This document shows, one piece after another, positions 3,479-55,900 of a stretch of DNA of 64,000 bases. Position numbers and translations under genes: made by a program. The stretch lies in assembly GCF_039555335.1 (NCBI RefSeq), contig NC_092629.1, positions 29,102,775-29,166,774 on the forward strand, read 5' to 3'. Position 1 is the first letter of the stretch. Each line of letters begins with the position of its first letter. The DNA is from Amphiura filiformis (lineage: Eukaryota; Echinodermata; Ophiuroidea; Amphilepidida; Amphiuridae). Below the pieces are notes generated by a model. It was given only the letters and a program-made list of their open reading frames with translations, searched no databases and had not been told where the DNA came from.

Positions 3479-3628
<150 letters not shown>

Positions 3629-3733
3629 CAGTGAGGTTGAGATTAGAATGCAAGATGCGAGATACGAAGACAAGACGCTCGAAATGACGCTAATAAAAGT
3701 TAATACTGTGGTTATATTTTACCTGTTTCACAG

Positions 3734-10583
<6,850 letters not shown>

Positions 10584-28675: not shown

Positions 28676-28738
28676 CTATGATGATGACGATGATGATGAT
28701 GAATTGATGATGATGATGACGACGACGACGACGACGAC

Positions 28739-28796
<58 letters not shown>

Positions 28797-28800
28797 ATAA
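28676..28800. repeat. (GAT)n/(GAC)n microsatellite
   Basis: GAT triplets with an internal GAC run. A reduced version of the same array lies at 38343-38405, at the matching position of the second duplicon, which helps fix the duplication boundary. Confidence 0.93.
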
Positions 28801-29428
28801 TCATGGTAATGATCATTATCATGATAATGATAACCATTATAAAACCTCTAAGAACATTAATTGCTTGTAAGTGTAATGGAGGGCTTTTTAGGTTATTGAA
28901 TTCTTGCTCATCTTTACTCATTTACGTATATATCACTGCTTAATTTAATAATTGGTTTTGATCAAGCAAAATATGGCAGGTAAATTATTTACTTTGCTCC
29001 CCTAAAAGGGGCAATAGTCCGTTAAAATAATGTCCTCTTTAAACAACATTTTAAGTGAGTTTTTAAAAAGGGTAAATAAATAAACCATTTGGGGATGTCC
29101 TGAAAGTCTTTGCAAATATAACCCTGAATACGTCAATGCAAACATTGTTAAACTGCCAAATAAATTCAAGGCAGTGAAGAAAGTGCGCGGTGTCATTCAG
29201 AAAAATACGGGAACATTAAAAAACAAAAACAAAAAAACAAAAAAAATCACGATCGCCGCTGGTCTCAAGAATGTTCGCAATTCGTACATCGAAGTTCACT
29301 TTTCAAAGTACGAACTGCAGTCAGGATGACAAAAGCGAATGATATGGAACTGGGCTGTGAAAATTTAAAAAAATGCGAAATCGCGACAAGAATAGGGGCC
29401 CTTTTGAGCTAGAATACATCGTCGTTGG

Positions 29429-30410
29429 GCAGGAAAAACCTCATATTATGTAAATTCAAAGGTCAAATGCAGCAAAACCTCATATGTAAAAAGTGGGCCC
29501 AGTACTAAAACCTTATTATGTGTTTTAGTCACCTCAATTTCAATCAGAAATGACAGCGAATGAAGCAAATGAAGGATTTCGCCTCTGCATAACTAAAACT
29601 ACAAAAAAGGCTGCTTTTTGCGTAATAAACTGAACTGTTTTAACCAATTGAATATATGAATACAAAAGCCACCTAAGTCCATACTTTGGCCAAATTGAGT
29701 TAAGCATGGGAAATTGTTGCTATACATAGGCCTGTCATATGCATGAAAGAACAACTCAAATTCATCCTCTGTGTCTATTGGGCATGTGAAAAATAGCATG
29801 TATGAAAGAATCACCCAATTCCATGATTTGAGTCTTGTAACACATTGATTGAAATCCAGTATGTATAAAAGTCCACTTGTAACACATTCATTGCTAGAGA
29901 ATGACTTTTGAACAAAAAATGGGTTTAATAAAGGAAAGTGTGTGGTTTATATTACATGGCAGAATGCTTATCAACATTATACATACCTGTGTGCTTTATT
30001 TTGTACTATCTTACTAGTGGTAATCTCATTCTAACATTGTTGTCTTTGTATATGATTCAAAAAACCACCTAAGTCCAAAATTTAAAATGAACCCCACGAA
30101 GTCCCTGAAATGCTAATCGTCATACCTAATACAGGTTAATCCACTCATTTGCACGTAAAACTTACCATATTGACCAGGTAAATCTAACTGAAGGAATTAA
30201 AATGATACACGGGTTTTTCTCTCAAAATATTTTCGCATGGACTTAGGTGGCTTTTGTATTCATGTATTCAATTGTTCATTGATTGTGTCTATTTTAAATT
30301 TCAACACGAATTTGAATATATGAGGTTTTGTCATTGGCCCTTTTTACTACACTAGGAGGTTTGGATTTAAGAGGTCAAATGCACATATGAGGTTTTTCCC
30401 TGCCCAGCGA
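29429..30410. mobile_element. Nested inverted-repeat element
   Basis: CGTCGTTGGGCAGGAAAAAC and its inverse TTTTTCCCTGCCCAGCGACG bound the region. A second inverted pair lies inside: ATGAATACAAAAGCCACC near 29655 and GGTGGCTTTTGTATTCATG near 30248. It is present in unit A and absent at the matching place of unit B, so the insertion post-dates the duplication or was lost in B. Confidence 0.65.
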
Positions 30411-30610
30411 CGTCATATAAGACTAACACCACATCTATATCGTATGTCATAATACAACATCAATTTAAAGAAAAATGCAAATGTTCGTCATATTTCGGCA
30501 CAAAAAATAAATGACACGGACATAAACATCAACCACCTTACGGGCATGCAGCAGGCATTCTTCCAGCTAAATCGACCAATTTCAAGGGGTGCCCATTGTC
30601 TAGTATTATA

Positions 30611-31066
30611 TAGGGTCCACAACGTATAAGTCGAAATGTTTTTTTTACAAAATGCAAAAATGTAAAACGATATGTATAGCCCTATTTGTTTTACCAATGT
30701 GCACCAATTGATAGCGTCATTGCGTTCAGTCACAGTGGTTAATCGTGTAAGAAAACATGCCGTTTTAAAATTGCACCTGAGTCCATAGCATTCAGGTTTT
30801 CTTTAAGAAACACATGGATTGGCCTGGCGTACTGTATTGTTTGAGAGTAAACTCTATGGACTCAGATGCCACATTTTCACTGTTTAAAACGGTCTCTTTT
30901 TTATATAAATAACCCATTGTGACTGAACGTAGTGACGTGTGACGCTATAATTTGGCCCATATCTGTAAAATAGATAAGGCTACACATATCTTTTTTACAC
31001 ATTTGCATTTCGTCAAAATTTTTTATTTATTTATTAGTATTTAGGGGGAACTTATAAGTTGTGGAC
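30611..31066. mobile_element. TIR element, GGTCCACAACTTATAAG family
   Basis: GGTCCACAACGTATAAG at the left and CTTATAAGTTGTGGACC at the right are inverted. Internally TGACGCTATAA and the GTGACTGAACG motifs are repeated in both orientations. A related copy, split by a LINE, is at 44349-45945 in unit B. Confidence 0.75.
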
Positions 31067-31510
31067 CATGTGTGTGAATAATACATATTTAGTAAATACG
31101 CATTGATGATGGCGTAATTTGATAAGGATTATGGGGTAAATCTCATAATTCCGTGTGTTTATACCCCAGATATCGTCAATTGACGTCACATCGACGAGGA
31201 CATCGACTTATCGGGTCTAACACAAGGAATTATGGGATTGAAGAAAAAGCGTCAATTGCCTCTTGAACCTGAAATAAGTACAAAGATATTAAGCACCGTA
31301 ATTATACCACGGTAATGATACAACACCATTTTCAAGCATAAAGTTAATTCATCCGTAAATCAAGCAAACAATAATGAAGCTATTCACGAGTCAGCAATAT
31401 CTATATTAGCTGTCAGGTTTTAACTGGTTTTTCCAAACCTTTTTGTTTCAATTAGCTAATGGTTATGACTGTCACGTTGCGGGTAAGTAAACAATCGATT
31501 CTTTTATCCA

Positions 31511-31550
31511 GTAGCCAATCATGCGTACAATGCAATAAATACTGTGTGCG
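31511..31550 (+). promoter_or_regulatory. Conserved upstream block of GRL copy A
   Basis: GTAGCCAATCATGCG followed by AATGCAATAAATACT matches the block upstream of copy B (39346-39388) at a similar distance from the start codon. CCAAT-like and AT-rich motifs suggest a core promoter, but no start site can be read. Confidence 0.35.
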
Positions 31551-31706
31551 TATTAAAGTGGTCAGCTTTTTAAGCGGCAAGTAGCACTTTTCCTTGTTAT
31601 TGGATCAAGCACACATTGTCCTTGTGAGATAAAAAAGAAATATAAAAAAAAAACAAGCTCACATTTTCGTCATATTTTCGTTTTGCACCTTTCATCAATT
31701 TGCAAC

Positions 31707-32815
31707 ATGGCAAACCATCGTGTACCAAACGACTTTGTAGTAGTTGAATTGGCACAACTGTCAACTGTCACTAAAAATCACACTCCAAAAGACTTCGTAT
31801 CAATTGATATGACGCATGTGTCACCTGTCGCAAAAGGGAAGGTGGATAAAGATACACAGCTTCGTGATGTTAACTTACGCCATGAATTTCGCCACATGTT
31901 TCGCATGATGGGTCTGTTTGGATTATACTTCACACCACAAAATGGCGAAAACAGGAGAATACCGGAAACTGCAGAGGCTTTCTTTTGCGAGCACATCAAT
32001 TTTATTGTCTGTTTGTTCAATTGTTGATGACCCTGAACGCGGCGAAGTCAACTACAGGCTTATGGTATGTGGAAGACAGGTTACTAGTAATGCAGATGAC
32101 GGCTAGTGCTTGGTACGTCCTTTGTGCTACCAATGCTGCCACATTGTACTATGTCTGCAGTACAGACAAGCTACCCGAGTTCTTCAACGCATGGCAGAAA
32201 TATTATCAGTCAGCATTCAAGAGTCGAACGTTTGGCACTTGTGCTGCAAGTGTAAACCGAAGAAAAACTCTTATCCTTGTTGGGGCTATATGTTTCATTC
32301 TATCAAATTCTTTGTTTACAGCTTTTTCGAGATTTGGGCCAGTAGAATCACTTCAAAACGATACTTATTTTCTGGTGGCCCCAACAATCGAACCAGTTCT
32401 CGTGTGGGAAGTATTCGCCATGTTTTCAATGATATCTGCTTCTGCTGCGTTTGTTCTGCCTTCCGCGTTACTGCTTATTTTTTGCTCGATCATTGCATTT
32501 CAATTTTACATGTTCACGAAGAGATTTCACAACTGTATGACAAAGGAAAGCAGGTTTAAAGGATGTTTAATGTCTCTCCGTCGCCAACATCAATACCTCT
32601 CCAAGGCCGTGTTTCTTCTTGATGAAACCTTCAGCTTTTATCTTGCCGTAAATTTTGGGGCTGTGATATTTGTAGCCTGTTTTCTGATGTACCAACTTGT
32701 TGTAGCTCAAAGTTACAAAAGTACAATGACAACATTGCTGACTCTCTTCTGGTTTGGCACGGCGTCAATGACATTTGCTCTAATCGGAGTGCTTACGGCT
32801 CAAGTTCCCGAAAAG
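31707..32815 (+). CDS. GRL copy A exon 1 (TM1-TM6)
   Basis: ATG at 31707 (MANHRVPNDF); the donor GTAAGA follows 32815 after VPEK. The reading frame shifts at 31939-31942. Downstream of it HQFYCLFVQLLMTLNAAKS, TAFSRFGPVESLQNDTYF and LRRQHQYLSKAVFLLDETF are conserved with copy B. The donor and the next exon keep phase 0. Confidence 0.88.
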
Positions 32816-35800
32816 GTAAGAATAACCGTAAATTAAAAGACTTCAAGTTGTTTCTATGTTTTCTCTGTGTGTATGTGTTTGTAAACACCTAATTCTGAAA
32901 TATTGTAATCGCAACCGTGGACATACACATAACCCTCCTTGGACTGTAAGTGCGATAGGGTAATAATAATGTACACATCTTATTTACAGATGACTAACGT
33001 TTCATGACATTGTGTGCAAACTGTATGTAGGTAGATATGGGTATGTGAGGATGAGTTAGGACGTATTTTAGGTAGTGTTGAATTATTTGAGCTAGTTAGG
33101 TAAAACTGTATCAAATGTTTAATTAGGTTGGTCCAATTTTAGCCTTTTCGTACGTGTACTTTGATCAACTTAAATTAAATTTTGCTCAACAAAATTTACC
33201 GTTACATAGCTACTCAACACTGTTAGATTAAAGCCTCAAATCAATCTAATCAATAATGCGACCAGGACACTCTAAAAAAAGGGATTTAAAAATAAATACT
33301 TTCTAATCTATTAGATTAAATATCTTAACCATAAGTCAGATTATAATCCCCATATTTAATCTTAGAAATTTGGGGAGTACTATCGTATAAGAGACACAAT
33401 AGATACACGACAAAGGTTAAACATAGTGTGCTCCATTTATTACAATGAAAATAATACCAATATTTTGTATAGCACCTTGCTCATAGTAACAATATAAAAC
33501 ATTTCGTATACAGGCACATGATATCGCCAACTATATTCATGACATTGGTGTTTTTGGATTTAAAGAACACGAAGAGGTAACACAGGTAAGAAAGAAAGAA
33601 GAAAGAATCAAGAAACGAGGCACTGGAATTTCTTATTGTGATCGCCCACTATTCCTAAATTATTATGCAACAGAATTAGTTAATATATTTTGTAGGTAAA
33701 CATGTTGTCTAGCAGTACAATATTGCATCTTGAGCTTGAGCATAAATGGACCCATTGTCAAACGATTGGAGCCCTATTCGAGTTGAAAGCCAATACACCC
33801 CAATGGAAGACATGGCATGAATCTTAAATCCAGGGAGTGTGAGTGTACATCCCCCTGTGTTGGAGATTAAGGTCATGTATTTCATAGGTGTGTGGATTCC
33901 AACTGGAATAACCCATTTGTGGGTATCGCATTATTTCACTGCATATATTGGTGTAGATTATTCATCCAGTAGTTCAAAAGATTATTTTGTAAATTAAATC
34001 TAATACTGGAACTTAAATTTGCAACTAACTTTGCTACGTTGCGTCCGAAAACATCGGACTTCGTGAGGCATCTGATTGATGATGTTGTGACGTCAGACGA
34101 AGTGCGATGTTTTCGGACGCAACGTAGAGGAAAAAAAGCTATAAGAATTTTTTTGTTACGGTTACTGCTGTCTTGTGATAGACGACATGTAGGAACCAAT
34201 GAAATTCAGCACTAAGAAGCTAAGCCACAGCCACTGACTAAGGTCCGTTCAAATGCGGTGGTAGTATGAACGGACCTTTAACATGTATTTAACTTTATTG
34301 TGATATCGCAATGCAGTAGTTTGCAGTACGGTGCAGTGCGGCAACGCAGCGCAAATGCGGTGGTAGTATGAACGGACCCAAAGATTGCAAAATAATATTT
34401 CGCATTGTTTTATTAGTCTTGACTACCTATTTATTTTGGACCTCCAAATCGAATCACCATGCATAATAGCGACTGTATTCGTTTGTATTAATCAGAAGAT
34501 TTCGCTTTACGTATCCTTTAAAGTATTCCGATATTTCAATCTGCAATGTAATATAAATTATCATAGATTTTTTAATTACCTTTTCTCTCCTTCCTTATCG
34601 CAGATGAGTATGTTCATGGCGAAATTAAACGGAGCGCCGATTTCCTTGACTCTATGGGGCATCGTCCCTCTTACTAAGGAATTCCTGTTGACGGTACGTT
34701 GAGTCATTGTGGTTACTGATAAGATAAGTAACGTAACAAAAATTGAACAAAGTCATCAGGTTTGGCGATACATATATAAATTTCATCAGTATTGTCTTAT
34801 AAACAAAACAGAATATTGATTAATGACAACTTCTTTTATTTTTCTATGTTCTATCTGTTTGTCACTTCTGTCTTGTCTATCTTAAGGCCCGGTCACACTA
34901 TGACGGACGATAAGCAACGAAAGGTGACGAACGTGAAAATCACAAAATGTTGACGGCAAAGCGACGACAAAAAGAGGAAAAACAAGATTCGGTGACGAGT
35001 GGGAACGACCTTTAGCGACAACACGACGGCAAGGGACGAAAGGATGCGACAGGAAACGGAGACTACCGACCAAATCCGGACGTTGTATGGGCGATGAGTG
35101 ATGAAGTCTCGACGGAGCCCGACAACAAGCAACGAGGTCAGACGGCTGGCAGCGGATTTGCTTGCGGCAAGGAACGGCAGCTGACGGTGGATTGCGGTGA
35201 TGATGACGTGACTCAGCAGCCGACATCAATGCATGTGTGTGTGCGGGTCGTATAGTCCCCTTTGGCGTTCCCACTCTTCACAACGTTCTGATCATCCACT
35301 CAAAAATATCAATATCAATAATAATCAAAAATATTAACATCAATATCAACAATAATCAAAAATAGTAAAATCAATATCAATAATAATCCAAACTATTAAT
35401 ATCTATATCAATAATAATCAGGATTATTCACATCAATATCAATAATAATCAAAAATATTACACATATCAATAATAAACAAAAATAGTAAAATCAATATCA
35501 ATAATAATTCAAACTATTAATATCTGTTTCAATAATAATCAAAAATAGCAACATCAATATCAATAGTAATAAAAAATATTACACATATCAATAATAATAA
35601 TAAAAAAATTATATAAATATCAATAATAATCAAAAATAGTAAAAGCAATATCAATAATAATCTAAACTATTAATATCTATATCAATAATAATCAAAAATA
35701 TTAATATCGATATCAATAATAATCAAAAATATTACTCATATCAATAATATTCAAAAAATATTACACATATCAATAATAATCAAAACTATTCATATCTTTA

Positions 35801-37239
35801 TCAATAATAATCAAAAATATTACCATCTATATCAATAATAATCAAAAATATTATCATGAATATCAATTATTACAATCAAAGATATTAATATCAATATCAA
35901 TTAGGCCTATTATAATCAAAGATATTAATATCAATATCAATAATAATAAAAAATATTACACATAACAAAAATAATCAAAAAAATTAATATAAATATCAAT
36001 AGGAATCAAAATATGAAAATCAAAGATATTAATATCAATATCAATTAGGCCTATTATAATCAAAGATATTAATATCAATATCAATAATAATAAAAAATAT
36101 TACACATAACAAAAATAATCAAAACAATTAATATAAATATCAATAATAATCAGAAATATTAATATTTTTGATTATTATTGATATTATTTTCTTTTTATAT
36201 GAACTTTGAAATTGCATCGTGCCGGGTAGTCTATTGAAATCGAAGTGACGTTTGCCAACGACTACCAACGAAATTGTGACGACCTCAAAACGACTAGACA
36301 CGGCTTCGCACGGTATGGAAACGTCAAAGAAATGAGGGTTGCGGTCTCCAACGAAATTTGAATGGAATCACGACTAATTCTTTTGCCGTCACAAAATTTT
36401 CAACATGTTGAAAATTTGCCGACGAACGCGACGAATAATTGCGGCCGTCTGCGGTCGCTAACGGATTCGTCAGCGACAACTAACGGCCACGGTTGTTTGA
36501 TGTATATAGAAGTGGCTTCATTATTAAGAAAATGCAAACTATAGATGGCGCTATTTATCATAAGTCATATTTCTTAATTTGCAAGGGTTAGGCAATCAAT
36601 ACTGCCATTTAAACAGAATAGGTGAAACAAGCAACAAAGAAATTTTATAAGCATATTTCATCAAAAAATAAAAGGAATTATTTTTATTAAAAGCCTGAAA
36701 GAGTAATTTCCAGTATCTAAATAGCGCCACCTATCTTGTCATAAATAGGTACATTTTATATCCGAAAAAGCTTTAAAAATGCTGTGAAAGTGAATAATTG
36801 TGTAAATAAGGGGAAATTAAAGTTGAAAATGACTCAAATGCATCTGTATACATTAGTATGATACAGCTTTAAGCTGTTTAAGCCTAACAATTGGGTTGTA
36901 TATGATGTTTTGTTTGAAAAACTAATAAATGATCCCATCAAACAGCTGTGCGGCGGCAACACACGATGAGTGGCGGTAAATTCAAAATTGCAATTCGCAG
37001 CTTAACGTCGCTTGCCGTTCACCCCTATTCGTCACAGTGTTACCGGGCCTTTATATAGTTCTGCTCTCGTTTTTGTGTGTGTGTGTGTTTGTTTTTTGTT
37101 GGTTTTTTTCATGTTGGTTCTTTTCATCTTTTCAGTGCGTCAAGTATCATGTAATATAGAAAAACAATCTATTTTGTTTATATTTCAGGTTGTGGGTGTT
37201 TACATCACATATTTTGCTCTAGTAGCACAATCATTCTGA
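31707..37239 (+). CDS. Gustatory-receptor-like (GRL) 7TM protein, copy A, four exons, one frame break
   Basis: Exons 31707-32815, 33514-33585, 34604-34693 and 37189-37239, all joined in phase 0. The protein belongs to the insect chemoreceptor (gustatory receptor-like) superfamily of inverted 7TM ion-channel subunits. Support comes from several hydrophobic helices, the conserved TALIGVLTAQVP-like TM6 region and the TM7 signature: the last exon reads VVGVYITYFALVAQSF, the TYF-x4-Q-x-F motif. Counterparts are known in echinoderms and hemichordates, where ligands are uncertain. Relative to copy B, exon 1 has 1109 instead of 1110 bases: an AAAA run (31939-31942) stands where copy B has AAAAA. After that base the frame is open to the end. 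With the base counted the protein is 440 residues. By eye about five in six residues match copy B. Confidence 0.88.
32816..34603. other. GRL copy A introns 1 and 2: contents
   Basis: Apart from exon 2 these introns hold a partial TATTCCAGTTGAAA-family element near 33800-33925, a 100-bp foldback at about 34028-34130 (CTACGTTGCGTCCGAAAACATC and its inverse), and a short inverted pair AAGGTCCGTTC / GAACGGACCTT at 34240-34279. No other genes seen. Confidence 0.6.
33514..33585 (+). CDS. GRL copy A exon 2
   Basis: 72 nt, phase 0-0, between the acceptor GTATACAG and the donor GTAAGA. Encodes AHDIANYIHDIGVFGFKEHE then EVTQ, an intracellular linker ahead of TM7, identical in length to copy B. Confidence 0.9.
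34604..34693 (+). CDS. GRL copy A exon 3
   Basis: 90 nt, phase 0-0, between the acceptor TATCGCAG and the donor GTACGT. Encodes MSMFMAKLNGAPISLTLWGI then VPLTKEFLLT, the conserved stretch entering TM7. Copy B differs at only a few residues. Confidence 0.9.
34885..37050. mobile_element. 2.2-kb TIR element with internal satellite, TTA duplication
   Basis: AGGCCCGGTCACACTATGAC and the inverse GTCACAGTGTTACCGGGCCT bound the element. TTA lies on both sides (34882-34884 and 37051-37053), which fits PIF/Harbinger. Subterminal CGACGAACG-type short words recur in both arms (ACGACGGCAAG, GACGAACGCGACGAA). The centre is a degenerate tandem array (35290-36180). It occupies GRL copy A intron 3 and is missing from copy B. 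No transposase is visible. Confidence 0.8.
35290..36180. repeat. Degenerate ATCAATAATAATCAAAAATATTA tandem array
   Basis: Units of about 28-36 bp built from ATATCAATAATAATCA and AAAATATTA repeat some 25-30 times. A larger duplicated block includes ATTAGGCCTATTATAATCAA (about 35902 and 36044). It is extremely AT-rich and lies inside the TIR element. Confidence 0.85.
37189..37239 (+). CDS. GRL copy A exon 4 (TM7 signature and stop)
   Basis: The acceptor ATATTTCAG ends at 37188. Encodes VVGVYITYFALVAQSF and TGA at 37237-37239. A short final exon carrying the TY-x6-F motif is a common gene structure in this receptor superfamily. Confidence 0.9.
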   Translation, partial: VVGVYITYFALVAQSF

Positions 37240-37465
37240 AACACTGAAGCCGTTTATTATTGCTAAGCTCGCTTAGTTTTCTCCGTTGGACAGTTATTTT
37301 ATTTGGGTCAAAGATAATCATCTTTTTCCGCTCTGAAATTGGATGAACAAGTATCCCAACATTTCCGAAACCACCTTTACGAACAGTTAACATGTGGGTG
37401 TTTGGATTTACTAACGCTTATCGGTTACTCGGACTATATTTTGCGCAATATTTTAATACGGTACC

Positions 37466-37475
37466 TTAATAAAAT
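37466..37475 (+). terminator. Candidate polyadenylation signal, GRL copy A
   Basis: AATAAA at 37468-37473, about 230 bases after the stop. It is the first canonical hexamer downstream on this strand that I noticed. Confidence 0.35.
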
Positions 37476-37831
37476 ATTTATCAATCTTTTCATTTTTTAA
37501 AGCCTAAATAATGATACATGTAAGAAAACCTAGTTTTGACTAAGGAAAGTTGTACGGTATAGAATGGCAACGAAATAATCAAACAGGTGCAAAGCGAGGA
37601 CAGAACCGCTACGCTAACCCACACCACCACACCCTTAAAAGGAAAACCTGCTCCGATTTTAACGAGACTGTAAATAATTCAGGCTTTGCTTTAATATGAC
37701 ATGCATTTATCCTAATTCCGACGTGTCCATGGATCATACATACATTTTTGCTGCAACTTCTCATTTTGTTATTTATACGAAAATAGTATTGTGCTTTGCC
37801 ATAAACCATAAAGATAAACTAAAAACACCTA

Positions 37832-38338
37832 CAGTAAGCCAAAAAATTAAGGTACCAGTTATGTTTACCCCCTGTATATCCTAAACAAAGACAGACATGA
37901 CATAATTGGACCCAGCAGCCAATAGCTGCATCTTTTAGCTCGAATTTAAGACCTCATTCGTTGAAATTGTTCAAGAAATAAAGACACGACGATCCAAAAC
38001 CCCCAAAGAGGTGTCAATTTAAAAGTTTCAGTTTCCGCCATTGCATGCGCTATTGATTCGCGAACAAGGGAACTAACGCCGCGCTTCCATTGATTAGCAC
38101 GTTAAAACTAGCGTCATGCTTTCATTGATTAGAACACAAAAGTGCAACTTTTGATTTCGTCTCTTCAGTAGGTTTTAGGTCACCGTTTCTTTAATTCTCA
38201 ACCAAGTTCAACAAATAAGGTCTTGAATCAGAGTTAAGGGTTCAGGTATTAGCTGCTTGTTTTAATTTTGACATATTTGTCTTTAATTAGGATATACAGG
38301 GGTGAACACAACTGGTACCTTAATTTTTTGGCTTACTG
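37832..38338. mobile_element. TA-flanked TIR element (Tc1/mariner-type), CAGTAAGCC family
   Basis: CAGTAAGCCAAAAAATTAAGG and its inverse ending CCTTAATTTTTTGGCTTACTG bound the element. TA is on both sides, and inverted similarity extends about 54 bp through GGTACCAGTT. A relative lies at about 60404-60730 in the nicotinic receptor intron. It ends immediately left of duplication unit B. Confidence 0.82.
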
Positions 38339-39345
38339 TATATCATCATAGGATGAATACGATAATAATTATGATAATGGTGATGATGACGACGACGATA
38401 ATGATTTTGTTTACTTTCACAGGCCGTTGAATTCATTACTTAAGCGTGTTTATGCTCAGAAATTTATTTACTTTGCTCTAACCTGCAAGCTCATTAATCT
38501 ATTAAAATAATGACAACTTCATATTAATTACTGCTTCTTCTTTTAAGAATATAGTTCAAATAGATTTTGGACAAACGAACGGACCCGTGAAGCCAAAAGG
38601 GTTTTAAAGGTTGAACCATACACAAGATACGCTAAACCGTCCGAGTATATTATTCGGGTAATTTTATTGCACCCCTGTATCTGGCACTTTTCTTTAGGGT
38701 AAAAAGTTTTAGATGCAGTGGATTTGACGTAAATAAATTCTAAGATCTGTCAATGTATCCTGTAAATAGTTTCCAAATAAACGTTACCTATAATGGGTCC
38801 CCGAATTAAAGGTAAATAAATTGACCATTTCGGTATTTCCCGAAATCCTTTGCGAGTTTAACCCAGAATACATCATCATTGATGAACACAACGTTACAGT
38901 CCAGTAAACATGTGCGCATCAACGTAGATACAGGTAATCGAATCTCGATCTACTCCCCTAAATCTGTATCACGTGCTGAATACGGAATGAATCGCAAATA
39001 TTTAGGGCCCTAGATCGAGATGAAGGTTATTGCGACGTACTTTGCAAAGAATTCTGGGAATTGCCGTTTATAACAATTGCTTAATGAGACTAATATAAGA
39101 ACATCGATATTGAACAACGCTAATAAAAATAAAGCACATGGTGATTATATGAAATAGTCCAAGCATAAAGGTAGTTCATCCGTGAATCAACATTATTGAC
39201 GAAACAGACAAAAAGCTAAATCGTCATGAGTCAGCAAAACCTATATTATTGCTCAGTTGTTTTTTTCAAAACCGTTTGAATCAAATGGTTAATGACTGTC
39301 ACGTTCCTATTATATGGACAATTTAACATCCAGTTATTTTAACCA

Positions 39346-39388
39346 GTAGCCATTCATGTGTCAAATGCAATCAATATTATATAGGTAT
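39346..39388 (+). promoter_or_regulatory. Conserved upstream block of GRL copy B
   Basis: GTAGCCATTCATGTG then AATGCAATCAATATTATATAGG. It matches the copy A block at 31511 and ends in a TATATA-like stretch about 130 bases before the start codon. A core promoter role is inferred, not shown. Confidence 0.35.
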
Positions 39389-39521
39389 AGCCAGAATACC
39401 TAATATCGTCCATATAGCGCTATCCCGCAATATTGAATCAAATAGAGGTAATCTTGTCTGTATTCAGTGTCAGTGGAAAATCAGGAACATTATTTGTTAC
39501 CTTACACCTTTCATTTCTTGC

Positions 39522-40631
39522 ATGACAGACATTCGTGTGCCAAACGACTTTGTAGCAGTTGCCATGGCACAACTGTCAACTGTGCCACAAAATCACACTC
39601 CAAAAGACTTCGTAGCAATTGACATGACGCATGTGTCAACTGTCACAAACGGAAACCTGAATAAGGAAACACAGGATCGTGATGTAAACTTACGCCATGA
39701 ATTTCGCCACATATTTCGCCTGATGGGTCTATTTGGACTATACTTTACTCCACAAAAATGGCGAAAACAAAATGATACTGGAAGCTGCAGAGGCTTTCTT
39801 CTGAGATCACATCAATTTTATTGTTTGTTCGTTCAATTGCTGATGGTCCTGAACGGAGCGAAGTCTATTACAGGTTTGTGGTATGTGGAAAGCAGGTTAC
39901 TAGCAATGCAGATAACTGCGGGCGCTTGGTACGTTCTTTGTGCTGCCAATGCTGCCATATTATACTATATCTGCAGCACAGACAAACTGCCAGAGTTTTT
40001 CAACGTATGGCAAACTTATTGCCAGCCATCATCCAGGAGTCGAATGTTTGGTACTTGTGCTGCTAGTGTAAACCGAAGAAAAACTCTTCTCTTTGTTTGG
40101 GCTATAGGTTTTATTCTATCAAACTCTTTGTTTACAATTTTTTCGAGATTTGGACCAATAGAATCACTGCAAAATGATACCCATTTTCTGGTGGCTGCAA
40201 CACCTGAACCAGTTCTGGTGTGGGAGGTAACCGCCATGTTTTCAATGATATCTGCTTCTGCTGCGTTTGTTCTGCCTACAGCGTTACTGCTTACTTTTTG
40301 TTCTATCATTACGTTTCAATTTTGCGTGTTCACGAAGAGATTTCGAGACTGTATGACAAAGGAAACCAGATTTAAGGGGTGTTTAATGTCTCTCCGTCGC
40401 CAACATCAATACCTTTCAAAAGCTGTGTTTCTTCTTGATGACACGTTCAGCTTTTATCTTGCTGTAAATTTTGGGGCTTTGTTAGTTGTAGCCTGTTTCC
40501 TGATGTACCAACTTGTTGTGGCTCAAAACTACAGAAATACAATGACGACACTGCTGACTGTCTTCTGGCTTGGCATGACGTCGATGAAATTTGCTCTAAT
40601 CGGAGTGCTTACGGCTCAAGTTCCCGAAAAG
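39522..40631 (+). CDS. GRL copy B exon 1 (TM1-TM6)
   Basis: ATG at 39522 follows a stretch with no other in-frame ATG. The open frame runs 1110 nt to the donor GTATAG after VPEK; without splicing it would stop one codon later. Contains HEFRHIFRLMGLFGLYFTPQ, a GR-like TM1 opening. Confidence 0.93.
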
Positions 40632-43600
40632 GTATAGATAATCTTTATTTAAGGGCTTTATGTAGTTGTTCTTTTTTGTTTGTGTGTATGTTTGTAAACA
40701 CCTGCAAACTGTGAAAACATACGGAACTGGTAGGTGCAAGAGGTTGCAAATAGTATGTAATTATATTCTGCCTTGAGAGGTTATGCTTAAAACTATAAGC
40801 CCGAGGTCACGTTTGTTCGATAGCATATAAAACTACGTCATTTTTAACAAAAGGTGAACACTGATGGCGCTATTTATTTTATATCGTGTTTTCATTTTTA
40901 CAAGGGGTAGACACTGGTATAATGGCATTAAACATGAGAAATTGTCAAAAATAATTTTATCATGAAATGTTAGGAAAAGAAACAAAAATGTATGTTAAAG
41001 GAATTGGAAGTGTATGTACATATTAAGTGTGATAACTGTTGGTATTGTCCAGGTCTAGAGTTGAAAATTGTATAATGTTTTGTCAGAAAATTTAATAAAT
41101 GATCATATTAAACAACCGTGTGAGATCAATAGTACTATTTTCCTAAGGAGCGCAGCCCGAAGGAAAATATTACTGCTGATATCACCATAGTGATATAACA
41201 GTTGATAAAACCATAGTTGTAACCAGAACCTCGATTAAAAGCAGCATATATACTCGTACTTCATTATTATCTTTTCATTGATTTGCAAGGGGAAAACTCA
41301 CAATGTACAAATGTACAGGGATGTGTGGAATGTTTTTACTTATAATGGTATCAGTGGGTAGAAGATACACAGAGCTATAATGTAGTATATTGGTATACAA
41401 ATTAGGGGTGTGCAACAACCCCCACCCTTCGTAGTCTGTTTACACAACAAGGCTCTAGAGTTTGAGGGTTAATTAAAGGCCAAATAGCAACACTTGCCCA
41501 GGGTCGCAGTGATTGTGATCGGAGGGTGTTGATGCAGATGATGCTGATCTTTTTATCATCAAAATGACAGCCATTTTCCTAGACATGCTAGAAGAAAATA
41601 TTTGTATAGCACTTTGTGTTACTCAAAATAACTATCTACTGTTTTTTCATATACAGGCACACGATATCACCAACTATATTCATGACATTGGTGTTTTTGG
41701 ATTTAAAGGACACGAAGAGGTAACGCAGGTAAGAAACAAGAATCACACAAAGAAACGAACAATTTCTTACGTTATCGCGCACTATCCTAAATATCATTAT
41801 GCAATCATTTAATACCAACTGAAAGTACAAAACAGCAGCTAATATTAATTAAAGGACGTTAATTCGAGCCCTTTTGTGATTGGGTTATTCCAGCTACAAT
41901 TCACACACCCCAAATAAACCATTCTCACTATTTTTTACACGAACTTTAGAGTAATTTTAGTTATTGATCGAAAGGAATTTGGGATCAGTTTAACATGCCA
42001 AATAAAAATTAACCATGCTATAACATTTCTTAACTACCACTTATTAAATCAACTTTAAATCAACAAAAAGCCCTGTGAAAGAAATGAAAACAACATGTCA
42101 TACATCAGGCTGTGGCACTATCAATTAGTAAGTTTTTAGCGGGTTCACCGTCGAGCAGGCTCAGAACTGTCAAGCTTTCATCAGGAGTAGCTCTGACTTC
42201 TTCAAGACAAAGTACCAAATAATGAGACATGTAGGCCGCCCCTTGATTACTGATGGCTCAGCATGAAAAGAGCCATTCACTGAAGAGAGTCCCTTGTCAA
42301 CAGAGAACAAACAGACCTCGCCTAAAACGTTTGGTGGCTCTGAAAAGAGCCTTTCGCTGAAGACTGCCCCTTGTCTACAGAGAACGATCAGACCTCGCTT
42401 ATCTACTGATGCAACTGCAGAGAGTTGCCAGTACCTCTTTGTGTGATTATTAAATACATGAATAGGCTGCCCTGAGGGCGGTGATCATAGACTGACGTCA
42501 GATGATCATTTTGCAACGAGTGGGTACGTTTTAATATTAATAATTTATTATCATTGTGGCCTACGCGTACGCCACGAGCAAGATCGTAGTGATCGCGTAT
42601 CGAACTAAGATCTCATCACGTACACGATCGTGGTGATCGAACTAAGGACGAAACGGTTAACCCTAACACTAGTTGATTGCCCGGGTTGATTGTCTAGTTC
42701 TTATACACTGATAGTAGCGTTACTGTATATAGTACATTTAAGAGACTTAAAATGTTTAATAGACCGATCTTCTGGTGACTTGGACTGCAGTGGCACAGGT
42801 CCTGCAGTGGCGTAACTAGCGGGGACAGAGGGGGGCAACGTGCCCCGGACGCTACCATTAAGGGGCGCCAAATTGCCCAATTCAGCATCGATTCTGCGCC
42901 CCTCCAAGCGACGAAAGTCAAAATTTTCGCGCGCTTCGCGCCCATTTCAACACAAAATCAATTGAAAGAACATTTTAAGACCGATATTCAACTTCTAGTA
43001 ACCAAAATTAATTAGTGATAGGCCTTATTTGTCCAAAATTTCGCGCGCTCCGCGTGCAATTGTTTCAAAGATGGAAGGGGGGGGGGGGCATTACGTGTCC
43101 TTGGCCCTGGACGCCGCAACCCTAGCTACACCACTGCTCGCTTCTAAGATATTCTTCGGTGGGGAGGGGGGGGGTGTAGGGACGCCAATTTTGTTTCTTG
43201 CCCCGGGCGCTACCAACCCTAGTTACGCCACTGAGGTCCTGGTCTCGTAGTCTGTAGGTCGGTGATTCGAGTCTTCAAATCCAGTTAGGCTACATAATGA
43301 AACTCAACTGGAGCATTTTATAAATTGGAAATATGTTCCTATTATATTATTGTCTCGCAGCTGTTCTGTAAAGTATAACGACAAATTGTGGTCTAGAACA
43401 ATAAATGGTGATTGGTGGTACAATATAGCGTTTTCTTTCGAAGGAGATTGGGGGCAGCTTAACATATCCTATAAAGCGTTACGACATTTAAATTTGCCAA
43501 TGTAATATAAATTATTGTAGGTTTTTTTTATAGTATTTTATTTTCTTCCTTACCGCAGATGAATATGTTCATGGCTAAATTAAATGGTTCGTCAATTTCA

Positions 43601-46111
43601 TTGACTCTATGGGGCATCGTCCCTCTTACTAAGGAATTCGTGTTGACAGTAAGTTGGGAAATTACGGGTAGGCCCTATTATAAATTAAGAAACAACGTAA
43701 AACTTCTCTTTCCACGCTTTTTCTCTCTTTCTCCCGTATTTATATATCTATATTAATTTGTTTATTTTTTTTAAAAACTTTTCTATGTCATGCCCTCTGC
43801 TGTTTGTCTCTTGTCTGTGTTATTCTGTCATTCGTCTTTCTTTCCCCTTTTTAGTGAGAAATTATGGTAACTTGCCATTTGGTTTAATATATTTCGTCAA
43901 CAGCCAACTATTCTAAACCAACGAGATCTATATCATAACGTTCAATAATCATTTTGTCCAATAACCAATTGGTCCGATTTAGATCGATCAAAAACCATTT
44001 AGTGTAATGACAATAAGCTAAAACCATTTAGTCCAATAACCATTTGGTAAAATACCTATCTGGTCTATAACCATTGAGTCCGATAGCCATTTGGGCTCAT
44101 GTCCATCTGGTTACAAACCATTTAGTCTAACATGCATTTAGTCAACTAACCAATTTAGTTCCCCAAATACATTTTAGGAATAATGCACACAATTTGCGGT
44201 GTTGGTATTTCCTCTTTCCTAACATTAATTTTTCCAGGTGATTTTCAACCAGAAATCCTTGATTTTTACCGTCCACAGTTCCGAAAGACCCCCTCTTTTT
44301 CATGCGATTTAAAACAGACCAAACAATATTAGACTTAATGAACATTATACTATACGGTCCACAACTTATAAGTTCCCCCTAATACATTTTAGAATAAGTC
44401 TAAAAATATTTTACGTAATGTAAAAATGTAAAAATGTATAGCCCTATCTTTCTATACGGTCCACAACTTATAAGTTCCCCCTAATACATTTTAGAATAAG
44501 TCTAAAAATATTTTACGTAATGTAAAAATGTAAAAACGTATAGCCCTATCTTTCTGCAATTAAGGCATGGTTAAATGTAAACAAATTGTTTCTTAATACT
44601 GATAAGACAAATGTTATGCTCATTGGTAGTGAGCCTAAGTTGCGTAATGATAAATGCTCTGCTTTTTCAGTTTCCATTGATGATTGTCAACTTGTAAGAG
44701 TTCATAGTGCCAAATGTCTAGGTGTAAAGATAGATTCTAAATTGCTTTGGCACGATCATGTTAATTCAGTCATACAGAAATTATTTTGTAAAATAGGACT
44801 CTTGAGACGTCTAAAAACATTTCTTGACGTTCGCACTCTTAATGTTTTATATAAGGCTCTTATCCAACCGCAGGTCGACTATTGCAGTGTAGTTTGGTTT
44901 GGTCGCTTCAATGAAGATGTACGTAAATTATGTGTTTTACAAAAGCGATGTGCTAGAATAATATTGCGTGCCAACTACCTTACGTCTTCTGATATAATGT
45001 TTCCTATATTAGGATGGGAATCACTTCCAAATCGTGCAATGTATTTCAAATCCCTGTTAATGTTTAAATGTCTTAACGATATATCACCACAGTACCTTAT
45101 CAACAGGTTTTCTTATGTACATGAAAAGCATAATGTGAACACCAGACAAGCTGCGTCCAATTTATTGGCTCTACCGCCTTGCACAAATGGTTATGACACT
45201 GGGTACTTTAAATCATCTTTTTCATACAGTGGGGTTGAGGTTTGGAATAAACTGAGTAATGATGTAAGAAGTTCAATAAATGTGCAGACTTTCACGCAAA
45301 GATTCAAGTCTTAAATAAAAATTGAGCATGTACTTGTTAATGATGTATTTCAATTTTACTTTGAAAATTGTATATATTTCTGTATTTTAATTTTGTATCT
45401 AATATTTGTATATTTTATATAAATTGCATGTTGAAAATTGTTGCCTTTTAATGTTATGTAAATGTATTGCAGGGCCCCATGTAAGACCAGCTATCGGCTG
45501 AATCAGGCTACCCTGGATAAATATGAATAAAATAAATAAATAAATAAATTTGTTTTACACATGTGGACCAATTTATAGCGTCACACGTTATTGCGTTCAG
45601 TCACAATGGTTAATTGTGTAAGACAATAGGCCGTTTTAAAAGTTGCATCTGAGTCCTTAGCAGTCAGGTATTCTTTAACAAACACATGAATAGACCTGCT
45701 CTACTGTATTGTTTGAGAGCTGACTCCTATGGACTCAGGTGCAGCTTTTAACACTGTTTAAAACGGTCTCTTGTTTACATAATGAACCATTGTGACTGAA
45801 CGTAATGACGTGTGACGCTATAATTTGTTCCATAATTATGTGTAAAACAAATACGGCTACCCATACCTTTTTACACGTTTGCATTTTCTCAAATATTTTT
45901 CGATTTATTTTAAAAATTATTTAGGGGAACTTATAAGTTGTGGACCCTATATATGATTATTAGGCTATATAGACAGAGTGTCATAATTCGCAGTTCCAAG
46001 TACCATGTAGTGTGGATATGACGTTGCATAAGTTAACAATCTATTTGGGTTTTATTTCAGGTTGTCGGAGTTTACATCACATACTTTGCTCTGGTAGCGC
46101 AATCATTCTGA
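39522..46111 (+). CDS. Gustatory-receptor-like (GRL) 7TM protein, copy B, four exons, intact
   Basis: Exons 39522-40631, 41657-41728, 43559-43648 and 46061-46111, all phase 0, giving 440 residues with no internal stop. Hydrophobic segments can be placed at about residues 104-128 (FYCLFVQLLMVLNGAKSITG), 135-160, 190-210 (TLLFVWAIGFILSNSLFTIF), 235-270, 320-345 (FYLAVNFGALLVVACFLMYQ), 350-367, and the C-terminal VVGVYITYFALVAQSF with the superfamily TM7 signature. The N-terminus (residues 5-44) contains two tandem 20-residue repeats built on P-x-DFVA. Insect relatives form tetrameric ligand-gated cation channels with an intracellular N-terminus; function in this organism is unknown. The tandem neighbour, copy A, points to a small lineage expansion. 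Confidence 0.92.
40632..41656. other. GRL copy B intron 1
   Basis: GATGGCGCTATTTAT near 40862 is shared with the element at about 36545 in copy A intron 3, pointing to a dispersed repeat. Otherwise nothing recognised. Confidence 0.4.
41657..41728 (+). CDS. GRL copy B exon 2
   Basis: 72 nt, phase 0-0, acceptor ATATACAG and donor GTAAGA. Encodes AHDITNYIHDIGVFGFKGHE then EVTQ, nearly the same as copy A. Confidence 0.92.
41729..42796. other. GRL copy B intron 2, left part
   Basis: Contains a partial TATTCCAGCT relative near 41886, and a block at 42230-42440 with repeated GAAAAGAGCC and CAGAGAAC words in imperfect tandem. No gene seen. Confidence 0.4.
42805..43233. mobile_element. hAT-like MITE with 8-bp duplication, copy 3
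   Basis: CAGTGGCGTAACTAGCGGGG and the inverse CCCTAGTTACGCCACTG bound the element. AGGTCCTG lies exactly on both sides (42797-42804 and 43234-43241). G-rich tracts and GCGCGCTTCGCGCCC words fill the interior. It is in GRL copy B intron 2. Confidence 0.92.
43559..43648 (+). CDS. GRL copy B exon 3
   Basis: 90 nt, phase 0-0, acceptor TACCGCAG and donor GTAAGT. Encodes MNMFMAKLNGSSISLTLWGI then VPLTKEFVLT. Confidence 0.92.
43920..44165. repeat. Degenerate ACCATTTAGTC short-period repeat
   Basis: About a dozen copies of (A)ACCATTTRGTCC-like words spaced 17-25 bp apart, consistent with an old minisatellite. In GRL copy B intron 3. Confidence 0.65.
44349..44556. mobile_element. Left arm of GGTCCACAAC element, duplicated in tandem
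   Basis: Two near-identical copies of about 104 bp: each starts TATACGGTCCACAACTTATAAG and ends ATAGCCCTATCTTTC (about 44350-44453 and 44454-44556). They differ by one or two bases. The matching right arm lies beyond the LINE at about 45553-45945. Confidence 0.85.
44557..45549 (+). mobile_element. 5'-truncated CR1-like LINE with intact C-terminus and 3' tail
   Basis: The frame 44586-45314 encodes FLNTDKTNVMLIGSEPKL, VHSAKCLGVKIDSKLLWHDH, LYKALIQPQVDYCSVVWFGR and VQTFTQRFKS then stop. This is the C-terminal RT thumb and tail of a CR1/Jockey-like element. A short 3' UTR ends in GGATAAATATGAATAAAATAAATAAATAAAT, a (AAAT)n-type tail. It is uninterrupted over 240 codons, so recent. It is inserted in the GGTCCACAAC element inside GRL copy B intron 3. 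Confidence 0.88.
45553..45945. mobile_element. Right part of GGTCCACAAC element, split by the LINE
   Basis: Matches the right three quarters of the intact copy at 30611-31066, from TTTGTTTTACACATG to CTTATAAGTTGTGGACC. Together with 44349-44556 it reconstitutes one element interrupted by the LINE. Confidence 0.82.
46061..46111 (+). CDS. GRL copy B exon 4 (TM7 signature and stop)
   Basis: The acceptor TTTATTTCAG ends at 46060. Encodes VVGVYITYFALVAQSF, protein-identical to copy A exon 4, with TGA at 46109-46111. Confidence 0.93.
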   Translation, partial: VVGVYITYFALVAQSF

Positions 46112-46236
46112 GACACGGAAGCCGGGATTGCTCACATAAATTTCTCAACTGGGCAGTAATTTCATTTAAAAGTCATTGAAAATCATCAGGTAGCGCTTAA
46201 CATGTCAACATTGTCCAAATCATATACAGTATGTAC

Positions 46237-46242
46237 AATAAA
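46237..46242 (+). terminator. Candidate polyadenylation signal, GRL copy B
   Basis: AATAAA about 125 bases after the stop codon, the first canonical hexamer downstream. Confidence 0.45.
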
Positions 46243-46259
46243 GGGTAGATTCCAAGTTT

Positions 46260-52463: not shown

Positions 52464-52984
52464 TTAATCATGTTCATCATGAGCACCCTCCTCTTGGAGA
52501 CTATTTTGTATTATTATAAATTCCACCATAACATAAGCCAGTACAATACATGTTGCTATTAATAAAATGTAGCCAAAACATTTATCAAATACCAAAGCCA
52601 ATTCTTTCCAGTCTTTCAAAATATTATCACGCGGAGACACAAATTTTTCATCTGAGTTTCTTCTATCCATTATCTGGATCATTTCTTGTTGCATAGCGCC
52701 CTCGCCTTCTATATAAAAATCATTGGACGTTGATGGTGCTGTTTCATATTCACAAATAGTGTCCATTTGGATGGCGTCTTGGTCGGATGGCATATCGTAT
52801 TTATCTGTATCAAGAGGCACAGCTAGGATAGCGGATGGAAGAAAACAAGAAAGATAACGCCTGGCAAATTCTTTTAGTTTGCTGGGCACACGTTTGGTTT
52901 TATTCGTGTGGAATATGGCGAGGACGGTTACGGTGACTGTAATTGATAAACAACTGATGGTAATCATTGCCATGAAGTAGGTTC
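52464..52984 (-). CDS. nAChR final exon: TM3, cytoplasmic loop, TM4, stop
   Basis: The minus-strand acceptor CTTTGACAG precedes 52984. Encodes TYFMAMITISCLSITVTVTV (TM3), a loop of about 100 residues rich in Asp/Glu/Ser, an amphipathic segment (LKDWKELALVFDK), TM4 (CFGYILLIATCIVLAYVMVE) and a His/Asp/Glu-rich tail ending EEGAHDEHD. Joins the previous exon as PIIG-TYFMAM in phase 1. Confidence 0.92.
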
Positions 52985-55900
52985 CTGTCAAAGATAAAAC
53001 AAAGCAAGACAATGCAATTAAATACTATCTGTAACACAATGGATATTTATTTAAAGAAACTAAGCCCAGGTTAATATAAACAGACCCTATTAACCTTGTC
53101 TTGTACCGACCTACTTTGACCATGTTGACTACTTAAACAATGTTTACAAAAAGAGATTGTTACTTTTTGTACAGTGTACACGCTTAAGGGGGTACTACAC
53201 CCCTTGGTAAATTTGTGACTATTTTTGCATTTTTCTCCAAAAAAACACACTGGTAACAAAAGTTATGTATATTATAGGGGCAAGGAATCCAATTACTACA
53301 CTGGACTTTCAGTGACTCAAGACAATCTGTACATTATTTATGATAAGAAAAGAGGTATCGATAGAATGTATCTCATTTCTAAACATATATTGAACCACTT
53401 GTCTTGAATCACTGAAATTTCAGTAAAGTAATTGGATTCCTTGACAAAATGTATTTTGATAGGCAGCTATTTAGCCTATAACAAATAGCTTTTTTTTATA
53501 TAGCGCTTATCATGATGAACAGTGAAAATTAACTTGCTAACTGTATGTAGAACATCCGTAAGTCGGATTAAGTTTATGTTCGAACATTAGCATATCTCTG
53601 ATCTATGCGTTGGGTTCGGGGTTGTGTTGATGTGATGAATTCGAATCGAGTTTGCAAATTAATCGTTTTCTAGCATTATCTTAGACTTGTTGGATTCTCT
53701 CTTCGTAATACCAAATGCACTTTTGTATGAAGTGATTTTTGTTGTTTGTTGTAGTAACTATAGTGTCAGGTAATGTCCTCATGTATTGTAAAGTGTCTCA
53801 CTGCGTACAATGGGAAAACTTGTCATAAAGTTTACATGCAATGAATTGATTGTATCAGTAGTGTCCGTGTGGAACAGTATCGACCACTTGCCTCGAAGAC
53901 CTTTTAATAGATTAATAAAATGAGTTGGCAATTACAGTTTCATTGATAAGCTGAAGAAGATACAATATATAATTAAAGCAATTATTCGTGGCAACTTAAG
54001 TTATATTATATCTGATATCCCCCATCCCCGATATGACCAGTTTACAGCCACGGGTTGTGAGGAACCCGCTACATCAGATGACCTTGATCAGCTCAGCTTT
54101 CCAGGAGGTGACCTTTGCCTGATATAATCGGGTGTCAATTTTGAACGTTGGTAACAGGTGTCATGCCGGAACCATTTGGGTCATGGTATGATTGAATGAG
54201 TTATTACAGCCTTCTGTTTAACTACAACGTTGGTAAAATACAGTGCGAAATTTTGCCCAATTTTGTTGAAATATGCAGCCCAATCAGCCCAAACAAATGT
54301 TGTAGAGTTGTAGAGTCATAAATTCTACATTTTGTAGAATATTATTTGAACAACAAATTAATAAAAGACGTCCCCAGCCAATGAGTCTAGAAGTTTACAG
54401 GAGTGTAGCGTAATGAGTGTGGGTAAACGATTAACACTAACCACCAAAACGCACTTAGCTATCAGCCCCAACTTATCTCGTGCCAATTACAATATCGTTT
54501 ATTCAATTGTTTGTAATATGTTTTAGCTAGGTTCCCTGAAAACCCTCATTCTGTAGCCTCCCTCGTGGGAATTTGATACAGTAAGACGTCAATTCCTTCA
54601 AACGAAATAACTGTATCGATTCAGCCATAGCCCAGAGTGTGTTTGTCCCCTAGCAGAACTTTGAGATCGAGAAACTTGACCGTAACTATCTGACCAGCAT
54701 TACTGATCGATAAGGCAAAATTCCTCGGAGATTTTCCATGTGGGGTATTATAATTATAACAACAAAAAACACAATGCACGCGAACAAGGACCTTTAAATA
54801 GGAACTAAATATATATTTAATAGATGTGTAGAAATGCATTCAAAGACGCTCACAGAAGCGCAGTCATGATTATGTTTTATTCCTTATTCTATTTTAATGT
54901 CTTGTATTTAATTTGAATATAAAGAGTAGCGGCTTGTTGTATTTTTAATTTGAATATATGAGTAGAGATTTGGTTAAGTGTCACAAAACGCAACCCAACA
55001 TGTATCAAGACTGAGGAGAGGTCATAAAGGACACCGTATAGATTCCTGTACTGTCTTCGATGTCAACTCAAATAACATCTCCTTCGGCTAAATTGTACCT
55101 GCCAACCCATTTTCAATCTATTGAGGTCGTTGAGTCAATTGATTTGGCCAAGACAATGTTTTTATATACACATGGATGTGCATGGTGTATGACCACAAAT
55201 GAAAGTTATGGGGACGCCATCAACTTTTAGCAAGTGATTGACATTGGCCTCTGCAGAAACTGCAGCGACTTGCAAAAACTGTACTATACGGTATCATTAT
55301 TTAGACGATTATGTTATTATGTTATAATTACCATATGATGCAGTCATGTCTACATTAAAATTCACCACGACCTTTGCAGGACCTAAACCCCATTAAAAGC
55401 TATTAAACCAAGATAACACTCATTGAAAACAGCTCAACTATGTTAAATCAGATCTTATCTGGTTAAATCCACACTACATATGTTTCTGTTTTACCTGTGC
55501 AATATTGCAATAAGCTGGTATTATAGTTTCAGTTGGGTGAACGATTATAAAGCAAACGCAAGGTAACAATACTGTCTGGGCCTTTGTTTCCGAAATGAGA
55601 CAATAGTCTGCTTATTGTTAACCAGCATTCTTGAAAATGAGAAACATAATGGTTGTAGACTTAACACAGTTTGGAAATAATGTCTTCATAATTTTTGGTG
55701 TTATCTGTCGTTTACATATCCTTCCTAAAACACCAAAGTGCGAATATTTCCAAACACTTAAATTAGCTAAAAATTTAGGACATGTTACAAAACTATATTT
55801 TCTAGAATTTCAGAGAGAACTGTAAATATTGGCTGGTTATTTTTCACAAAGTGACGTTAAATATGCAATGCCCGATTACCTATAACATACACTAAAACAC

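Follow-up and report, generated by a model that had tools for sequence, protein, structure and literature searches.

A tandem pair of candidate gustatory-receptor-like genes in Amphiura filiformis, with one copy frameshifted as sequenced

Gustatory receptors (GRs) and gustatory-receptor-like proteins (GRLs) are described in the available excerpts of PMC7746228 as proteins of 350 to 500 amino acids (aa) with seven transmembrane segments (TMs), an inside N-terminus, longer inside loops, and the motif (T/S)Yhhhhh(Q/K/E)(F/L/M) in TM7, which the same excerpts call diagnostic yet not definitive. These excerpts report GRLs from Echinodermata and Hemichordata and not from Chordata, and they describe the information on GRL function outside insects as very sparse. 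For gating, a close described system is the insect gustatory receptor BmGr9, for which the accessible part of PMC10769236 assigns roles along the TM7 stretch 436-TYLVILIQF-444: the hydroxyl of T436 contributes to a ring, Y437 contacts lipid, I440 is the inner gate, Q443 rotates into the pore upon opening, and F444 is the plug of the closed state. GRL-type proteins are already known in echinoderms and hemichordates, and the pair described here adds another example. The listed literature on GRLs or gustatory receptors of echinoderms, hemichordates, and other deuterostomes yielded no description of a tandem pair of this kind, which is no proof of absence. The GRL101 of a starfish paper is, according to the portion of PMC6267866 at hand, a G protein-coupled receptor (GPCR) and not a GRL, and it shares only the name.

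We analysed a 64,000-nt stretch of the A. filiformis genome, referred to below as the window. It contains two four-exon genes, both on the plus strand in head-to-tail order with 2282 nt between them, which we call gene A (31707-37239) and gene B (39522-46111). It is highly likely, in our judgment, that they represent a tandem duplication of one GRL gene of the 7TMIC superfamily encoding a predicted tetrameric channel, with gene B as the working copy and gene A either mis-assembled or recently disabled. The features of the locus are as follows.

31333..31541, plus strand, stretch upstream of gene A with a BLAST match to 39160-39376 (67.5%)
31707..32815, plus strand, gene A exon 1, 1109 nt, with a frame break at an A-run near 31940
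33514..33585, plus strand, gene A exon 2, 72 nt
34604..34693, plus strand, gene A exon 3, 90 nt
37189..37239, plus strand, gene A exon 4, 51 nt including the stop, encoding most of the putative TM7b
39160..39376, plus strand, segment 5' of gene B with a BLAST match to 31333-31541 (67.5%)
39522..40631, plus strand, gene B exon 1, 1110 nt, encoding the N-terminal tail through the putative TM6
39540..39649, plus strand, tandem repeat within the part of gene B exon 1 that encodes the N-terminal tail, with an offset of 60 nt (position computed from the offset in exon 1)
41657..41728, plus strand, gene B exon 2, 72 nt
43559..43648, plus strand, gene B exon 3, 90 nt
46061..46111, plus strand, gene B exon 4, 51 nt including the stop, encoding most of the putative TM7b

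The introns measure 698, 1018, and 2495 nt in gene A and 1025, 1830, and 2412 nt in gene B. Gene B is intact and encodes an unbroken protein of 440 aa; its three introns fall after residues 370, 394, and 424 and are clustered at the 3' end, and the third lies where the hydrophobic segment 422-440 begins, seven codons 5' of the TY of the motif. The tandem four-exon pair of the original prediction was borne out by GT/AG ends on all six introns, by intron phase (0 throughout), and by the ending common to both proteins, VVGVYITYFALVAQSF followed by the stop. The exon lengths had been described as identical, which holds for exons 2 to 4 but not for exon 1, where gene A is one nucleotide shorter. 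The span given for the pair, 28676-46245, was too wide: the coding span is 31707-46111, and the predicted start lies about 3 kb upstream of the gene A ATG. The N-terminal tandem repeat of gene B comprises about 20 codons, and 39 of 50 bases are alike in its best ungapped stretch, compared to 28 in the best of 200 codon shuffles. By eye, the gene A translation carries the same repeat.

A search with the Pfam 7tm_7 and 7tm_6 profiles had been set beforehand as the test of gustatory-receptor-like identity. The C-terminal 172 aa of spliced gene A matched 7tm_7 (PF08395) at 29.4 bits (E = 6.4e-7), above the curated cut-off of 26.6 bits, and the corresponding 172 aa of gene B scored 22 bits (E = 1.1e-4), below it. 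In both genes the match covers profile positions 207 to 361 of 370. The 102-aa piece of gene A that lacks exons 2 to 4 reached 16.8 bits, below the cut-off, and the rise to 29.4 bits upon the addition of these exons supports the splicing. A 264-aa piece of gene B gave 13.4 bits with 7tm_7 and 20.2 bits with 7tm_6, both below cut-off. The similarity therefore lies in the C-terminal part of the pair, and of the pieces tried, the 172-aa part of gene A is the one that passes the cut-off. No Pfam family was matched by full-length gene B, by gene B exon 1, by the 81- and 272-aa pieces of gene A exon 1, or by the last 72 aa (exons 2 to 4 plus two residues) of either copy alone. The reversed C-terminal part of gene B, used as a control, gave no chemoreceptor match. 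An unrelated family, the virus turret model STIV_turret_2nd, reached an E value of 0.0065 with the C-terminal part of gene A, below its own cut-off, indicating that small E values should be read with caution here. GPCR families were absent from the Pfam matches up to an E value of 10.

The test thus returned similarity to 7tm_7, together with a weak signal for 7tm_6, and taken with the TM7 motif (three of four key positions) and the three 3' phase-0 introns, it supports the assignment of the pair to the GRL family as judged from sequence. Compared to animal GRLs as described in the available parts of PMC7746228 and PMC9998090, the pair shares the length, the hydrophobic segments, the TM7 motif region, and, as regards number, phase, and clustering, the 3' phase-0 introns. 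It differs in the Ser at the last motif position and perhaps in the N-terminal tandem repeat. A scan of viral contigs based on the C-terminal alignment gave 35 pattern matches, among which no relative was confirmed.

When the upstream half of the window was compared with the downstream half by BLAST, exon 1 was matched at 85.75% over 1186 aligned DNA columns, and further matches were found around each of exons 2, 3, and 4. The extent of these matches excludes chance likeness between the two genes. A tblastn search of the whole window with the gene B protein revealed no third copy, as the five remaining matches had E values of 3.9 or worse. The two proteins are identical at 362 of 439 compared residues (the codon at the frameshift being omitted), so that the 77 differences (17.5%) agree with the earlier estimate of about one residue in six. 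The pair diverged under purifying selection overall, with a dS of 0.313, a dN of 0.091, and an omega of 0.29 (bootstrap, 0.21 to 0.42). The predicted concentration of changes at the N-terminus is weak: a mild enrichment is seen in the first 50 compared positions (16 changes where 8.8 would be expected; P = 0.006 without correction) and none when the cut is set at 30, 78, or 100 positions (P = 0.13, 0.06, and 0.07, respectively). The densest 20-position block is 161-180, with 8 changes. The suggestion that the pair is a good case for sub- or neofunctionalization was not substantiated, given the overall omega and the fact that one copy is frameshifted as sequenced. Such an explanation has direct rivals in the loss of that copy and in an assembly error, and the frameshift is a warning against reading the pair as neofunctionalized before the sequence has been checked.

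The frameshift results from a run of A residues that is one base shorter in gene A, which reads CCACAAAATGG compared to CCACAAAAATGG in gene B. In gene A, the reading frame is lost beyond residue 78, and uncorrected translation yields 106 aa before a stop. Neither exon 1 piece of gene A contains an in-frame stop, nor do exons 2 to 4 before their end. In neutral simulations starting from the gene B coding sequence and run for half of the dS of the pair, a mean of 6.4 stops accumulated, and 1 of 1,000 runs had none. With shorter neutral spans, 9.6% of the runs (0.05 substitutions per site) and 28% of the runs (0.025 substitutions per site) remained free of stops. The absence of stops from gene A, compared to about six in the simulation, indicates that the frameshift is either recent or an assembly error. 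Either constraint on gene A lasted until fairly recent times, or the gene is intact and its assembly is faulty.

We lean slightly toward the latter explanation, in which gene A is intact and its missing base arose in sequencing or assembly. Both copies would then work and may form homomeric or heteromeric channels. The base is missing at a homopolymer, no further lesion was seen in gene A, and the omega of the pair is low, although a pairwise omega does not separate the constraint on gene A from that on gene B. We give somewhat less than an even chance to the alternative that gene A has truly become a pseudogene in recent times, the animal itself carrying the frameshift, the receptor being made from gene B only, and the pair heading to loss. 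The broken frame and the short raw reading frame favor this explanation, and the stop-free fractions of the short simulations fit it. Against it, every splice site of gene A is retained, neither piece has acquired an in-frame stop where simulation at half of the dS would predict several, and the length difference sits in a homopolymer, which is a usual place for an assembly error. Under either explanation, gene B would work, and gene A would have been constrained for most of its history, being either intact with an error in the A-run or recently disabled.

At 440 aa, gene B falls within the length range of GRs and GRLs. Its hydropathy profile has eight peaks, not seven, above the threshold used, and of the peaks at 222-240 and 247-265 we assigned the latter to TM4. 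On this assignment, which is based on hydropathy only, the inside segments are 100, 37, 49, and 58 aa long and the outside segments are 13, 39, 11, and 0 aa long. With the N-terminus inside, 31 of the 244 inside residues are Lys or Arg, compared to 3 of the 63 outside residues. TM7 reads TYFALVAQSF in both copies and fits the motif at three of four key positions, the last being Ser with Phe at +1. A loose form of the TM7 pattern, ending no more than three residues from a stop, has four occurrences across the six reading frames of the window, of which two are the GRL genes, compared to 0.945 per window in 200 base shuffles, indicating that the motif by itself proves little.

Compared to the BmGr9 stretch, gene B keeps T, Y, and Q in register over nine residues aligned by eye, and in the same by-eye register T424 falls at BmGr9 T429. 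At the position of the outer plug F444, gene B has S439, and Phe follows one residue later as the last residue, F440. By analogy with BmGr9, the product would be a seven-helix subunit with a cytoplasmic N-terminus, its tetramer forming a ligand-gated cation channel, and the pore would be lined by TM7b, most of which comes from the last exon. By position, T431 would form the hydroxyl ring, Y432 would contact lipid, L435 would serve as the inner gate, and Q438 would enter the pore on opening. The outer plug would be altered, with S439 in place of the Phe and the protein ending at F440. Exon 4 differs between the copies by 5 synonymous and 0 nonsynonymous changes in 16 codons, and since the motif is held in both copies, the gate variant seems to be a functional one and not the product of decay. 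The naturally altered gate motif of an intact GRL gene offers a usable test of the generality of the insect gating model.

Close to the chance given above to a true pseudogene, but a shade lower, is that of a role other than chemosensation for the GRL, for example in early development. This possibility is suggested by the available excerpts of PMC7746228, which, citing Saina et al. 2015, report that GRLs of Nematostella and the purple sea urchin are expressed early in development and that one Nematostella protein may have a role in patterning. More tentatively, and with perhaps one chance in a handful or slightly better, the pair may form a GRL subtype whose outer gate has been re-set: the plug Phe would have become Ser, the Phe would have moved to the C-terminal residue, and the channel would rely on the inner gate alone for closure or stay partly open in the resting state.

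Structure prediction was carried out with AlphaFold2 on exon 1 only, with alignments of three and two rows, and the models had mean pLDDT values of 38.0 and 37.8, respectively. The first model has two 51-residue helices (229-279 and 284-334) where a long TM4 and TM5 would be expected, which at such low confidence is a hint only. In a Foldseek search of the PDB with this model, the top match was the insect odorant receptor AgamOR28 (E = 0.89; TM score, 0.20), which is not significant, and none of the best 50 of 115 matches (up to an E value of 10) had an E value of 0.001 or better. PDB sequence searches with full-length gene B, the A2 profile, the C-terminal 172 aa of gene A, and the last 72 aa of gene A found no odorant or gustatory receptor, only chance matches with E values of 0.31 or worse. 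The failure of the fold test in these low-confidence models, and the lack of a profile match at full length, would fit a reading in which the pair belonged to a different family of multi-helix membrane proteins and resembled 7tm_7 at the C-terminus by chance. We regard this as improbable, as the 7tm_7 score, the TM7 motif, the three 3' phase-0 introns, the length, and the inside-positive loops agree with one another, and the Pfam matches up to an E value of 10 include no GPCR family. That the two copies are uncollapsed haplotypes rather than paralogues is extremely improbable, for although haplotype duplication is a recognized assembly fault, the dS of 0.313 is far beyond the usual allelic difference and long intron stretches fail to align between the copies.

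Several other elements were observed in and around the GRL tandem duplication. A transposon-like element with inverted repeats occurs upstream of gene A (30684-31083) and again in gene B intron 3 (45548-45962), the two being 82% alike. By eye, most of gene A intron 3 is filled by a possible transposon (34885-37055), whose terminal inverted repeats are imperfect and which contains an internal ATCAATAATA-type repeat. Gene B intron 3 also contains an open frame (44544-45314) without a Pfam match up to an E value of 0.01, which we take to resemble the end of a non-LTR retrotransposon polymerase. A reverse transcriptase fragment lies at 14599-15108 on the minus strand (RVT_1; E = 6e-22). Inside gene B intron 2, a histone 3' UTR stem-loop (RF00032) was detected on the minus strand at 42311-42356 (34.6 bits; cut-off, 34). 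By eye, no histone reading frame was seen beside it, and a second, less perfect stem-loop-like repeat lies further along the minus strand.

A repeat array at 787-1221 consists, by eye, of units of about 66 nt and has two open frames per strand. Upstream of the pair, a DEG/ENaC channel-like frame at 3561-4571 matched ASC at 82 bits (E = 6.1e-23), with ASIC5 as the best match in the PDB, and a second such frame at 8024-8362 scored 22.9 bits, just under the cut-off of 23.6. Downstream of the pair, on the minus strand, a frame at 52464-53024 matched the membrane region of the nicotinic receptor channel weakly (19.9 bits; cut-off, 28.1), and a nicotinic acetylcholine receptor-like frame at 56913-57485 matched Neur_chan_LBD (E = 7.7e-27), had alpha-3 as its best match in the PDB, and contained adjacent cysteines (CCEHPW).
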